This document shows positions 28,965 through 32,323 of a stretch of DNA of 36,557 nt, piece after piece (position 1 is the stretch's first letter; every line of letters begins with the position of its first letter). The notes beneath the pieces were generated by a model that was not told the origin of the DNA, ran no database searches, and saw nothing but the letters and a program-made list of their open reading frames with translations. Source of the stretch: Oscillospiraceae bacterium (GTDB taxonomy: Bacteria > Bacillota > Clostridia > Oscillospirales > Acutalibacteraceae); the NCBI GenBank assembly GCA_015065445.1, contig SVQF01000008.1:1-36557 (forward strand). Direction: 5' to 3'. The position numbers and the translations under genes were made by a program.

Positions 28965-29567
28965 CTAATCGTTAATCAAAAATTTTGCCTCTTTAATTAT
29001 GCACCTGACCGCCTCTACCGTTATAGCAGTTCCGCAGATAAACGCAAAGTATGCGTCAAATGCAAAATTGACTTTGGTAATCAGCACCATACTCATCAGC
29101 GTAAACAGCGTTATAAAGCAGTCAAGAAAACTGTCGAGAGCGAGTGCCTTAATTATAACCGAGGGCGATTTTTTGTTAAGATGTAAAAACAAAAACCCAA
29201 GCCCGAGTTTTACAAAAATTGTTGCCGTAATCAGTGCGGCGTACTTTGGTGTGTAAAGCACTGCGGCGGGATACATCAATCTGTCAAGACCTCTGTAAAC
29301 AAAGAAAAATCCCGTCATCGCAATAATTATGCTTATCACAAACGCCGCAACGCTCTGCGTTCTAAGCGAACGTCTGCCGCCGAGTTTTACCGCAAGTACA
29401 AACCCTGCGAGTGCAATAAGGCACGAAAACGTGTCGCCCAGATTGTTCACGGCGTCGCAGTAAATTGTTAGCGAAAATGCCGCATTGCCGATATACAGCT
29501 TAATAATAAAGAGTAAAAAATTAACCGCTGTTCCGACAATTCCTGCGGTGTAATAATACTTTTTCAT
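28965..29567 (-). CDS. CDF-like membrane protein lacking the cytoplasmic domain
   Basis: 200 residues, about six hydrophobic segments. YCDAVNNLGDTFSCLIALAGFVL fits helix 2 of cation diffusion facilitators (two aspartates of the D/H-xxx-D site), and ALDSFLDCFITLFTL fits helix 5 (LDSFLD, again two acidic residues). Standard CDF exporters are about 300 residues with a cytosolic metal-binding C-terminal domain; here the protein ends soon after helix 6 (IIKEAKFLIND). It may be a reduced metal transporter; metal unknown. ATG at 29567 has AAAGGA. Promoter at 29595-29623. It leads the two-gene unit with the metallophosphoesterase. Confidence 0.7.
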   Translation of the reverse strand: MKKYYYTAGIVGTAVNFLLFIIKLYIGNAAFSLTIYCDAVNNLGDTFSCLIALAGFVLAVKLGGRRSLRTQSVAAFVISIIIAMTGFFFVYRGLDRLMYPAAVLYTPKYAALITATIFVKLGLGFLFLHLNKKSPSVIIKALALDSFLDCFITLFTLMSMVLITKVNFAFDAYFAFICGTAITVEAVRCIIKEAKFLIND

Positions 29568-29668: not shown

Positions 29669-30151
29669 ATGGATTTATTATACTTGTTGTTATTGATTGT
29701 TGTAATAGCATTACAGCTGGTAATAATTATGGGCGGCAAAAGGTTTGACTGTCCACGTGTGCTGATGCACGAGGGCGTGTTTAACACAAAAAATATAAGA
29801 CGATGCAGGGTGACGGTGCAGGATATTATTGAGGCGGCAAGGCTAAAGGGATACTTCAACCTTGCTGATATTGACACTGCGGTTATGGAAAAAAACGGAC
29901 AGATTAGTTTTTTGCCCACTGCACAGAAGCGACCTCTTTCGCCAAAGGATTTTAACTTTTCGCCCGTCAGCGAAGGCTTGAGTTATGTTGTTTATCAAAA
30001 CTCAAAACTCGATTTAAAACGCCTTGAAAAACTCGGATTCACAGAGGAAAAACTGCGGGATTTTCTGCAATCACGGGGATATAGCGAAAGCGATATTTCG
30101 CTTATTATTATCAGCGAGTCGGGACGGGTGAGCGTTTTCAGTTCAAACTGA
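29669..30151 (+). CDS. DUF421/YetF-like protein with a single membrane helix
   Basis: 160 residues. One N-terminal helix (about 2-23, LLYLLLLIVVIALQLVII) precedes a soluble domain in which RCRVTVQDIIEAARLKGYFN, LADIDTAVMEKNGQISFLP and KRPLSPKDFN match the core of the YetF (DUF421) C-terminal domain. Ordinary DUF421 proteins have three helices and about 200-230 residues, so this is a reduced version. The second half (KLDLKRLEKLGFTEEKLRDF) is an extra alpha-helical part. Start at the ATG at 29669 behind GGTGA; an in-frame start at 29618 is possible but unlikely. Function of the family is unclear. Confidence 0.65.
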   Translation: MDLLYLLLLIVVIALQLVIIMGGKRFDCPRVLMHEGVFNTKNIRRCRVTVQDIIEAARLKGYFNLADIDTAVMEKNGQISFLPTAQKRPLSPKDFNFSPVSEGLSYVVYQNSKLDLKRLEKLGFTEEKLRDFLQSRGYSESDISLIIISESGRVSVFSSN

Positions 30152-30152
30152 G

Positions 30153-30181
30153 TTGACAACTTTGATGTTTTAATATATAAT
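30153..30181 (+). promoter_or_regulatory. Consensus promoter of the ArsR/P1B operon
   Basis: -35 TTGACA (30153-30158), 17-base spacer, -10 TATAAT (30176-30181), both perfect. It begins two bases after the stop of the preceding gene. Start near 30188, inside the operator. Confidence 0.9.
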
Positions 30182-30186
30182 AACTC

Positions 30187-30218
30187 CGTTCATATGATTC
30201 ATATGAGTCATATGAACG
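30187..30218 (+). promoter_or_regulatory. ArsR-type operator: three TCATATGA words in a 32-bp palindrome
   Basis: TCATATGA occurs at 30190-30197, 30199-30206 and 30208-30215, each itself a palindrome, spaced 9 bases. The whole from CGTTCATATGA to TCATATGAACG is symmetric except for one non-matching pair. It covers the predicted transcription start and resembles SmtB/CzrA operators (family knowledge), so the ArsR protein encoded just downstream probably binds here. Confidence 0.85.
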
Positions 30219-30240
30219 AATTTTACATATGAGGTGCGTT

Positions 30241-30522
30241 ATGATAGACGAAGAAATCTATGATATGGCGGAACTTTTTAAGATGTTTTCCGACCCCACG
30301 AGGATTAAAATACTGCTTTCGCTTTTTGAAAACGAACTTAATGTTACCGAGATTGTTGAAAAAATCGGAGCAACGCAGACGGCTGTGTCGCATCAGCTCA
30401 GGGCGTTAAAGCAAAACCACCTGGTAAAATGTCGCCGTGACGGTAAAAAAATGATTTATTCTCTTGCCGACGACCATGTTGAAACCATTATCAATATGGC
30501 AATCGAGCATATTGAGGAGTGA
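30241..30522 (+). CDS. ArsR/SmtB-family zinc-type metalloregulator
   Basis: 93-residue winged-helix repressor: FKMFSDPTRIKILLSLF, then recognition helix QTAVSHQLRALKQNHLVKCR, then the wing DGKKMIYSLAD. The C-terminal helix has D-x-H-(10)-H-xx-E (in DDHVETIINMAIEHIEE), the exact spacing of the alpha-5 zinc site of SmtB/CzrA. The alpha-3 ELCVCD cadmium/lead motif is absent. I use the ATG at 30241, which has GAGGTG; an ATG at 30229 is also in frame. It is followed by the reduced P1B ATPase with GAGGAG and a short overlap-type junction, so it likely represses that gene until zinc (or cobalt) rises. Confidence 0.93.
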   Translation: MIDEEIYDMAELFKMFSDPTRIKILLSLFENELNVTEIVEKIGATQTAVSHQLRALKQNHLVKCRRDGKKMIYSLADDHVETIINMAIEHIEE

Positions 30523-30527
30523 TACAT

Positions 30528-31484
30528 ATGGCACACGAACACACTCACGAACATTCACACGACCACTCGCACAATCACGAAAATTTTGACGCAGTCAAAA
30601 AAGAAGAACTCACCAAAATAATTATATCGGCGGTGTTTTTCGCACTCGGCTTTGTGTTTGACGAGTTTACGTCACTGCCGTCGTTTGTGCATCTGGTATG
30701 TTTTGGTATTTCGTACATCACAGTCGGCTTCGGCGTGGTGCGTAACGCAATTGAGGATATACTGGGCGGCAACGTTTTTAACGAGTGTTTTATGATTAGT
30801 ATTGCGTCGCTCGGTGCGTTTGTTATCAAAGAGTTTGACGAGGGCTGTGCGGTTATGCTGCTTTATGCAGTCGGCGAGTATATTCACGGTCTTGCACTGT
30901 CAAAAAGCAAAAAGCAAATCCGCTCCATTGAGGAAAACAGTCGGGGCAAACACGTTCACCAGACAGGCGAAAGCGAAAGTTTTATCGCCCGTTTCGCAAA
31001 GTATTACACGCCCATAATCTGTGCAATATCGGTTATTGTTATCGTTGTTCCACCGCTCTTTTTCGGCGGCGAGTGGAAAGACTGGGTTTACCGTGGACTT
31101 TCGGTGCTCGTTATCGGCTGCCCGTGTGCAATCGTAATATCGGTGCCGCTGTCGTTTTCCTGTGCGATTGACGCCTGCACAAGGCACGGCATTTACGTGT
31201 TCCACACCAACGCACTTGAAAAACTGCACCGCTCGGACAACGCAGAGGGAATTATAGTACCCGACGGCGACGAAAACGGTCTTGCATTCGCAAAAAAAGC
31301 CGCTAAAAAAGCGGTGATTATCGCACGTGAAAACGTATACATTGCACTTGCAGTTAAAGCGGCGGTGCTTGTGCTGGCAGTGTTTATGGAAAAAGAACTA
31401 CCAATGTGGCTTGCCGCATTTTCAGACGTAGGTATTGCAGGACTTGCAATACTCAATTCACTTCGCTCACTGAGGATTAAATAA
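30528..31484 (+). CDS. P1B-type metal ATPase reduced to its membrane domain
   Basis: 318 residues, about half the length of ZntA/CadA-type pumps. A histidine-rich N-terminus (HEHTHEHSHDHSHNHE) is followed by eight hydrophobic segments that match P1B-2 helices in order. Kept: NVFNECFMISIASLGAF (helix 3), SKSKKQIRSIEEN (end of helix 4), a TGES remnant, FIARFAKYYTP (before helix 5), the transmembrane metal motif GCPCAIVISVP (helix 6, CPC at 198-200), lysine 277 in IALAVKAAVL (helix 7) and aspartate 300 in FSDVGIAGLAILNSLR (helix 8). Missing: nearly all of the actuator domain, and the whole phosphorylation/nucleotide domain including DKTGT. It therefore cannot be an autonomous ATPase. ATG at 30528 has GAGGAG; the end overlaps rsmE by one base. 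Frame is open throughout. Confidence 0.9.
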   Translation: MAHEHTHEHSHDHSHNHENFDAVKKEELTKIIISAVFFALGFVFDEFTSLPSFVHLVCFGISYITVGFGVVRNAIEDILGGNVFNECFMISIASLGAFVIKEFDEGCAVMLLYAVGEYIHGLALSKSKKQIRSIEENSRGKHVHQTGESESFIARFAKYYTPIICAISVIVIVVPPLFFGGEWKDWVYRGLSVLVIGCPCAIVISVPLSFSCAIDACTRHGIYVFHTNALEKLHRSDNAEGIIVPDGDENGLAFAKKAAKKAVIIARENVYIALAVKAAVLVLAVFMEKELPMWLAAFSDVGIAGLAILNSLRSLRIK

Positions 31485-32206
31485 TGCAAAAACTATTTTT
31501 AGATTACACGCCCGAAAACAGCATAATTCTTGACGGCGAGCAGGCACGCCATATTGCAAAGTCGCTCAGAATGAAGGTGGGCGATATGCTCACCGTTACC
31601 GACGGCAACGGCAACGACTACGGTTGCCTTATTGACGAAATAACAAAAGACACCGTAGTTCTGTCGGTCTGCTACAAGCAGGCAAGCAACAGCGAACCCG
31701 ATTGCAAAGTCACAATTTATCAGGGCGTGCCGAAGGGCAGCAAGCTCGAAGATATTATTCAGAAATGCACCGAACTCGGCGTATGCAGGATTGTGCCTAC
31801 TCTCACAAAGAGGTGCGTAAGCCGCCCCGACGAAAAGGGGGCAAGTCGTAAAGGCGAGCGTTATCAGAAAATCGCACTCGAGGCTGCACAGCAGAGCGGC
31901 AGAGGAATCGTGCCGCAAATTGCCCCGCAGACAACTCTCAGGCAGGCGATTGAAAACGACGGCAGCGAACTGAAAATTCTGTTTTACGAAGGCGGAGGCG
32001 AAAAAATAACATCGCTTGTAAAAAGCGATGTAAAAAGCGTATCGGTATACATAGGTCCCGAGGGCGGCTTTGACGAAAGCGAAGTTGAACTTCTCACGCA
32101 AAGCGGTGCAGTGTGTGCAACTCTCGGCAAGCGTATACTCCGCACGCAGACGGCACCCGTCGCAGCACTTACGGCAATAATGCTGCTTACAAATAATTTA
32201 GAGTAA
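31484..32206 (+). CDS. rsmE: 16S rRNA (uracil-1498-N3)-methyltransferase
   Basis: SPOUT-family methyltransferase, 240 residues. The N-terminal PUA-like part contains LDGEQARHIAKSLRMKVGD. The knot domain has YQGVPKGSKLEDIIQKCTEL, the RCVSR substrate loop, KIALEAAQQSGRG, YIGPEGGFDESE and LGKRILRTQTAPVAALTAI, all standard for RsmE. The start codon overlaps the stop of the reduced ATPase by one base (TAATG), and GAGGA lies just upstream, so it is cotranscribed with arsR and the ATPase-like gene although the function is unrelated. Confidence 0.96.
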   Translation: MQKLFLDYTPENSIILDGEQARHIAKSLRMKVGDMLTVTDGNGNDYGCLIDEITKDTVVLSVCYKQASNSEPDCKVTIYQGVPKGSKLEDIIQKCTELGVCRIVPTLTKRCVSRPDEKGASRKGERYQKIALEAAQQSGRGIVPQIAPQTTLRQAIENDGSELKILFYEGGGEKITSLVKSDVKSVSVYIGPEGGFDESEVELLTQSGAVCATLGKRILRTQTAPVAALTAIMLLTNNLE

Positions 32207-32235: not shown

Positions 32236-32323
32236 CCCTTGACCCTTGACCCTTGAGTCTTTGGTCTTGAGTCTTGAGTCTTGAGTCTTGAACCTTGAGT
32301 CTTGAGTCTTGAGCCTTGAGTCT
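32236..32323 (-). repeat. Heptamer tandem repeat, locus C (12 units plus a partial one)
   Basis: Plus-strand reading: three cccttga units, then gtctttg, then eight units of consensus GTCTTGA with single-base variants (accttga, gccttga), then a partial gtct. This is the reverse complement of the TCAAGAC heptamer at 20131-20158 and 25252-25279. It lies between the convergent rsmE and ogg genes, and the end of the array overlaps the ogg stop codon (32322-32324). Confidence 0.92.

Follow-up and report, generated by a model that had tools for sequence, protein, structure and literature searches.

Organization of the locus

The window examined in this study is a 36,557-nucleotide stretch of DNA, and it contains a gene for a P1B-type protein of 318 amino acids in which the membrane helices of a ZntA-like ATPase are present and the actuator (A), phosphorylation (P) and nucleotide (N) domains are missing (Table 1). 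The frame opens with an ATG, is closed by TAA, has zero internal stops, and is preceded by a visible GAGGAG ribosome site. The open frame, the good ribosome site, and the one-base overlap into rsmE had all been pointed out in the initial annotation and can be seen directly in the sequence. The rsmE gene also follows at -1 to 9 bases in 11 of the 13 other short-form loci.

The short gene is separated by 5 bases from the end of an arsR gene. The winged helix of this repressor was confirmed with PF01022 (6.3e-14) and NF033788 (93.7 bits against a cut-off of 55), and its description as a zinc-type ArsR agrees with the DxHx10Hx2E motif, which is also present at 13/13 other short-form loci and at all 18 full-length loci that have an ArsR. 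According to PMC8790569, this motif is the signature of SmtB-type alpha-5 sensors, for which the sensed metals are Zn, Cu, Co, and Ni. The probable operator is a perfect 11-10-11 inverted repeat, CGTTCATATGA-N10-TCATATGAACG, and many short-form and full-length loci, though not all of them, have related CATATGA repeats ahead of ArsR; at L058 and L059, both full-length loci, the repeat is a perfect 12-2-12. In four short-form loci (L040, L044, L046, and L047) and several full-length ones, the 140 bases preceding the chosen ORF start contained no CATATGA-type site.

The neighbouring YetF ORFs are 138–193 amino acids long in the 10 other short-form loci where they were found versus 223–277 in 16 full-length loci (ORF lengths at the loci were taken from the first possible start), and in those sequences that were read about 60 amino acids, with membrane helices and the GITIGS stretch, are gone. 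The CDF-type protein consists of the membrane part only (Pfam match at 10-194), leaving no room for the cytosolic C-terminal domain, and it is similarly long in species with a full-length ATPase. A tandem repeat of CTTGAGT units separates rsmE from a DNA glycosylase-like gene.

Table 1. Positions of genes and sequence elements at the locus, numbered along the window
Feature	Position	Strand	Basis or remark
CDF-type cation efflux protein gene	28965-29567	-	200 aa
YetF/DUF421 gene	29672-30151	+	also shortened in the short-form clade
Sigma-70-like promoter, TTGACA-17 bp-TATAAT	30153..30181	+	by eye; just ahead of the inverted repeat
Probable operator, inverted repeat	30187..30218	+	perfect 11-10-11, CATATGA type
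ArsR/SmtB-family repressor gene	30229..30522	+	97 aa; alpha-5 motif DxHx10Hx2E
Short P1B-type gene	30528..31484	+	318 aa; MA, MB, M1-M6 of a ZntA-like ATPase, without A, P, N domains
His-rich N-terminus, residues 1-19, predicted disordered	30528..30584	+	sequence; AF2 pLDDT <50
C87, predicted cytosolic end of M1	30786..30788	+	C in 14/14 short; N in 20/20 full-length and 5/5 half-way
E105, equivalent of ZntA release-path E202	30840..30842	+	PDB profile alignment; kept in 36/36 reduced proteins
H120, predicted cytosolic end of M2	30885..30887	+	H in 13/14 short; Q in 20/20 full-length and 5/5 half-way
Short linker, residues 139-150, replacing the actuator domain	30942..30977	+	alignment
CPC, residues 198-200 (C198-P199-C200), membrane metal site	31119..31127	+	PDB profile alignment
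C212 and D215, predicted cytosolic end of M4	31161..31172	+	14/14 and 13/14 short; 0/20 full-length
H226, just past M4	31203..31205	+	H in 13/14 short; G in 20/20 full-length; N in half-way
Short linker, residues 233-250, replacing phosphorylation and nucleotide domains	31224..31277	+	alignment, AF2
K277 (helix-7/M5 Lys), equivalent of ZntA built-in counter-ion K693	31356..31358	+	PDB profile alignment
D300 (helix-8/M6 Asp), equivalent of ZntA metal-binding D714	31425..31427	+	PDB profile alignment
rsmE, 16S rRNA methyltransferase gene	31484..32206	+	ATG at 31484; one-base overlap with the short gene
Tandem repeat of CTTGAGT units	32238-32323		period 7/21, about 10 copies

Anatomy and predicted structure of the short protein

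The protein begins with MAHEHTHEHSHDHSHNHENF, and alignment reading showed a His-rich N-terminus in all 14 short forms identified. The marks of the P1B-2 group are present, namely CPC in M4, Lys in M5, and Asp in M6. By contrast with a full-length relative from the genus, which is matched by PF00122 over positions 3-180 and by PF00702 at 3e-23, the short protein is matched by the tail of PF00122 only (46.5 bits, profile positions 106-180 of 181) and has no Pfam match to the HAD/P-domain PF00702. A 12-residue linker stands where the TGE-bearing actuator domain would be, the P/N (HAD) domain with GDGxND is absent by Pfam and NCBIfam, and DKTGT was found neither in the 318 residues nor in any of the 14 aligned short forms. 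All seven NCBIfam matches fell below their cut-offs, those to pieces of the ZntA and CadA models far below. The initial annotation was therefore correct in reporting the loss of the DKTGT segment, the nucleotide domain, and nearly all of the actuator domain. Because the catalytic domains are absent, it is very unlikely that this chain alone could export metal by means of ATP.

When the family was used in a profile search of the PDB, Shigella sonnei ZntA (4umv) ranked first (1.4e-46), and C198/C200, K277, and D300 aligned with ZntA C392/C394, K693, and D714 (ZntA residue numbers counted by hand along the profile alignment), which upholds the proposed ZntA/CadA-like membrane domain with its CPC, helix-7 Lys, and helix-8 Asp. 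The spacing from C200 to K277 is 77 residues versus 299 in S. sonnei ZntA (4UMV), practically as first estimated (77 versus about 300). By alignment count, Cys and His occupy the positions of ZntA E184 and E217. PMC8880997 describes E202 as part of the release path, K693 as a counter-ion, and D714 as metal binding.

Two AF2 models (pLDDT 76.3 and pTM 0.73 with 19 sequences; pLDDT 79.8 and pTM 0.76 with 24 sequences) were all-helical, with eight helices of membrane-spanning length whose order matches MA, MB, and M1–M6. Foldseek returned ZntA (4UMW) as the best PDB match for both (E 3.8e-9 and 1.6e-8), again in line with the initial annotation, and the fit of these predicted models was moderate (TM-score by query 0.69 and 0.63; rmsd 11–12 over 614 columns). 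The models point to an eight-helix membrane domain of the ZntA fold. S. sonnei ZntA and the short protein share their membrane-helix order and the CPC, K693, D714, and E202 positions, but the former has 732 amino acids with catalytic domains, whereas the latter has 318 and none of the actuator, phosphorylation, or nucleotide domains.

Several Cys, His, and Asp residues are new in the short form, and helix order predicts that they lie on the cytosolic side. In addition to those listed in Table 1, linker residues H142 and H144 each occur in 13/14 short forms (both in 12/14) and in at most 2/20 full-length proteins, where the alignment is weak. The D215 position is G elsewhere in the genus, and C212 and D215 are also absent from the five half-way proteins described below. 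The exceptions among short forms are one genome (G017) for H120, H142, D215, and H226 and another (G015) for H144. C87 also occurs in one paralogue (G014) and a Cys at position 212 in one unrelated full-length protein, so the single new residues are not unique among P1B proteins. Such fixed gains would be expected of a new or modified role rather than of decay.

Distribution within and beyond the genus

The short form is present in 14 of 80 genus genomes, the window's genome included, with 58–100% identity and frames of 316–358 amino acids that have no internal stops. The 13 other carriers, one per species, are 58–83% identical and cover the query from residues 1-13 to 317-318. Five further species, each represented by one of the 80 genomes, carry a half-way form in frames of 396–413 amino acids, which retains a P-domain piece with GKG(I/H)ND instead of GDGIND and has no DKTGT, actuator, or nucleotide domain. 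By hand count among the matches listed, 42 genus genomes have a full-length relative (4 of the 42 partial) and 19 have neither.

At 20 full-length loci that were fetched, ArsR directly adjoins the ATPase in 18, and the fetched stretch also includes a YetF gene in 16, an ECF gene in 14, and a CDF gene in 10, mostly in the order of the window. These shared neighbours identify the short protein as the orthologue of a full pump. The full-length ATPases of the genus (about 650–700 amino acids) hold the same position behind ArsR, are 40–67% identical per matched segment, and also have a His/Cys-rich N-terminus and related upstream repeats; they differ in having DKTGT and complete PF00702 and PF00122 domains and in lacking C87, H120, C212, D215, and H226. 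The initial annotation had reasoned that full-length ATPases at this locus in close relatives, with the deletion in this strain only, or many frameshifts in strain copies, would indicate a pseudogene. Full-length ATPases do occupy the locus in relatives, but the truncation is conserved in 14 species rather than confined to one strain and is free of stops.

Searches beyond the genus recovered the window's own form in 1 of 135 genera of the family at E <= 1e-46 (398 genomes sampled). At E <= 1e-27, samples of 394 genomes from the order and 398 from the phylum yielded, beyond the window gene and full-length proteins, only one separate protein (G660), and a plasmid collection gave no match to the window's form at 1e-20. 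Among the best 80 of 562 relatives in a contig scan, two loci were short, three half-way, and 11 actuator-less.

Descent and selection

In a P1B gene tree (54 sequences, 290 shared columns), the 14 short forms group together (UFBoot 98) and unite with the half-way forms (UFBoot 100) inside the full-length proteins of the genus. A GyrB tree of 75 genomes, from which G026, G038, and G071 (no GyrB match) and G021 and G055 (partial matches) were left out, places all carriers of a reduced form whose GyrB was usable, 12 of them short and 5 half-way, within a single clade of 26 genomes (UFBoot 100). Because these carriers share one clade, horizontal transfer was rejected, and the reduction appears to be ancient within the genus, with vertical descent. 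At the threshold of the genus search, 9 of the 26 clade genomes yielded neither form (genomes 68–95% complete), and the short gene therefore seems dispensable. The nearest full-length sequence in the gene tree belongs to G040, whose position in the GyrB tree is unreliable because its GyrB is only 69% identical. One short-form genome (G017) lies nearer the half-way species in the GyrB tree, whereas the gene tree makes the half-way and short forms sister groups; given this difference, the last reduction step may have happened twice within the genus.

The omega of the short gene was 0.127, compared with 0.116 for rsmE (12 loci) and 0.037 for arsR in the same group, and the values for its membrane parts (0.116) and linkers (0.114) were similarly low. 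The 20 full-length orthologues gave 0.088, the half-way form 0.056, and the 11 actuator-less genes 0.067. Synonymous sites are near saturation (dS 1.9–2.8 in four measured pairs), and the absolute omega values are consequently approximate. Fixing omega at 1 lowered the log-likelihood from -9501.5 to -10254.3, a cost of 753 log units, and neutral evolution of the short gene is excluded. The claim that this is a real membrane-only protein and not a product of decay is thus sustained by its presence in 14 species without stops, its low omega, and a GyrB tree that fits vertical inheritance. Decay or a single-strain deletion was rejected on the number of species, the low omega, and the second lineage described below, and the short protein is very probably functional.

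A second, separate reduction

The protein G660, found in the order-wide search, is a membrane-only protein of 378 amino acids from a different family. Among 200 genomes searched in that family, six have a membrane-only protein (about 355–390 amino acids, four genera) and three have the actuator-less type. The latter type is also represented at 11 loci from MAGs titled Oscillospiraceae among the best 80 of 562, where frames of 564–594 amino acids contain DKTG and have no TGE and no GDGxND. A tree of 245 columns joins the membrane-only and actuator-less proteins in one clade (100), and the proteins of the window's genus, full-length ones included, make up a separate clade (100).

An ArsR gene lies upstream of 3/6 membrane-only genes, with a 4-base overlap in the two for which ORFs were listed, and two of these repressors have a Cys-x-Cys stretch (CVCE) that suggests the alpha-3N type. 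In the flanks examined, no ArsR was found beside the other 3/6 membrane-only, the 15 actuator-less, or the 5 half-way loci. All six membrane-only proteins (L241-L246) have an N-terminal HHHH-x-DGSCCC stretch, probably a metal-binding tail. The actuator-less gene stands directly after fba at four loci (L081, L085, L087, and L089; in the first at L081:3971-5674, + strand), and ORFs named by eye as response-regulator-like and large sensor-kinase-like lie downstream in L081, L085, L089, and L091.

The CPC, the M5 Lys, the M6 Asp, E86, and E105 are kept in all 36 reduced proteins compared from the two lineages (14 short, 5 half-way, 6 membrane-only, and 11 of 15 actuator-less). At the entry site, E117 is missing from 3/6 of the second lineage's membrane-only proteins, and one actuator-less protein has Asp there. 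Reduction in two families, with ArsR beside members of both, argues against an accident, and it appears that evolution has kept the engine-less form more than once.

The intact paralogue

The window's genome also encodes a CopA-like ATPase (contig C18) and a full ZntA-type paralogue of about 630 amino acids, which is located on another contig (C71) than the short gene. This paralogue (L053:5545-7670, - strand) is preceded by a separate 72-amino-acid HMA-like ORF and adjoins larE-, larB-, and larC-like ORFs (names by eye). Among the matches listed, it was counted in 12/14 short-form and 5/5 half-way genomes (17/19 together), in 8/42 genomes with a full-length orthologue, and in 16/19 genomes with neither form. 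These are hand counts in which at least 61% identity defined the paralogue and 43–50% the full-length orthologue, with partial sequences assigned to the paralogue in G020, G067, and G038 and to the orthologue in G052, G053, G055, and G072. Among the matches listed, the association in reduced-form versus full-length-orthologue genomes has a Fisher p of 2.4e-7, although the reduced forms come from one clade and kinship is uncorrected. The two short-form genomes without the paralogue are 74% and 84% complete. Most simply, the paralogue would have assumed the pumping role, and the old gene would then have disappeared or been remodelled.

It had also been considered that a separate protein might carry the missing domains. 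With the full-length orthologue as query, no such ORF was found in 12 of the 19 reduced-form genomes: beyond the short or half-way gene, matches in these genomes occurred only in frames of 622–909 amino acids, that is, in whole ATPases. The search also covered three genomes with the full-length orthologue. A split pump was rejected on the basis of the 12 genomes.

Discussion

A search of the open literature for a membrane-only P-type ATPase found no description in titles and abstract beginnings, with most subscription journals outside its scope, and to our knowledge the engine-less form is undescribed so far. We hypothesize, with a probability of about 0.45, that the short protein descends from a pump and translocates Zn2+ without ATP, under induction by zinc. 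The ancestor would have been a complete exporter of the zinc/cadmium type whose gene was paired with that of a zinc-type ArsR, and its actuator, nucleotide, and phosphorylation domains would have been lost in the ancestor of a gut-bacterial clade that also owns a second ZntA-type pump. What remains is the complete ZntA metal path of a pseudo-P-type ATPase, comprising the CPC and Asp site, the counter-ion Lys, and the release Glu, through which Zn2+ or a similar metal may cross the membrane without ATP under zinc-responsive expression. It is possible that the His-rich tail and the new cytosolic Cys, His, and Asp residues load metal at the inner mouth. The likeliest mode would be export or exchange on an ion gradient, such as Zn2+/H+, because the promoter should open at high zinc. 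Coupling is assumed here because a passive Zn2+ path would leak inward at a negative membrane potential, which is unfit for a zinc-derepressed promoter. ATP-free transport is favoured since the kept residues belong to the translocation path and not just to a binding site.

Alternatively, the protein could be a membrane zinc sensor or buffer, with Zn2+ bound at the CPC/Asp site and the His-rich tail and then stored or reported to another protein instead of being moved. The His-rich tail in 14/14 short forms, the new cytosolic residues, an operon shared with a metal sensor, and the His/Cys-rich N-terminal stretch in 6/6 second-lineage membrane-only proteins would all suit this role. However, the release Glu and counter-ion Lys are kept in 36/36 proteins, beyond the obvious needs of a binding site, no signalling domain is attached, and response-regulator- or kinase-like neighbours accompany only some actuator-less genes of the second lineage and none are found at the window locus. 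We consider this role unlikely.

An accessory role, as a partner that alters the metal loading, assembly, or regulation of the intact ZntA-like paralogue, is about equally improbable. It stays in consideration because the paralogue accompanies the reduced form in 17/19 genomes versus 8/42 with the full-length orthologue (among the matches listed). However, the reduced forms come from one clade, the paralogue is also found in 16/19 genomes with neither form (among the matches listed), and in the window's genome it lies on another contig beside lar-like ORFs. The association may reflect no more than a takeover of pumping by the paralogue, which left the old gene free to change. P1B-ATPases are not known to require such a subunit.

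Less probable still is a channel that passively takes up a scarce divalent metal, in which case ArsR would control a different target or respond to a different metal; inward Zn2+ flow is thermodynamically favoured and the predicted cytosolic side offers possible new ligands, but an ArsR-first operon with the alpha-5 motif predicts expression at high metal, when uptake would be out of place. A redundant pump in slow decay, of which a harmless remnant or one that couples translation between arsR and rsmE persists, would fit the second pump, the nine clade members with neither form, the half-way forms, and the shortened yetF, but it is largely refuted by the absence of stops in 14/14 genes, the low omega in membrane parts and linkers alike, the invariant metal-site residues, the fixed new residues, and the same reduction in a second family.

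The short form probably has a task that is performed by no known pump of its kind. Somewhat more tentatively, P1B ATPases may have given rise on two or more occasions to a class of ATP-independent metal transporters through loss of their entire catalytic machinery, with actuator-less and P-domain-remnant proteins as surviving intermediates that suggest the route. Such a class, if real, would mean that a P-type membrane domain can run an alternating-access or conducting function without the phosphorylation cycle. Tight coupling of the membrane domain to the cytosolic domains is the textbook view of P-type ATPases. Membrane-only versions that occur naturally and are under selection make it possible to test directly what this domain achieves by itself and whether K693- and E202-type residues act in ion movement independently of the ATP cycle, and they bear on how primary pumps turn into something else.

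Known systems resemble the short protein in part. KdpFABC, a P1A system, divides ion path and ATPase between separate parts; however, its P-type subunit keeps the ATPase and a channel protein carries the ion, whereas in the present case the P-type membrane domain stands alone. ArsB functions with or without the ATPase ArsA and offers, as an idea, the likeness of a carrier operating without its ATPase, but its fold is unrelated and it is primarily a secondary carrier. Finally, the stand-alone catalytic fragments called soluble P-type ATPases are likewise one part of a P-type ATPase, but the opposite half, as they consist of the catalytic domains without the membrane part.
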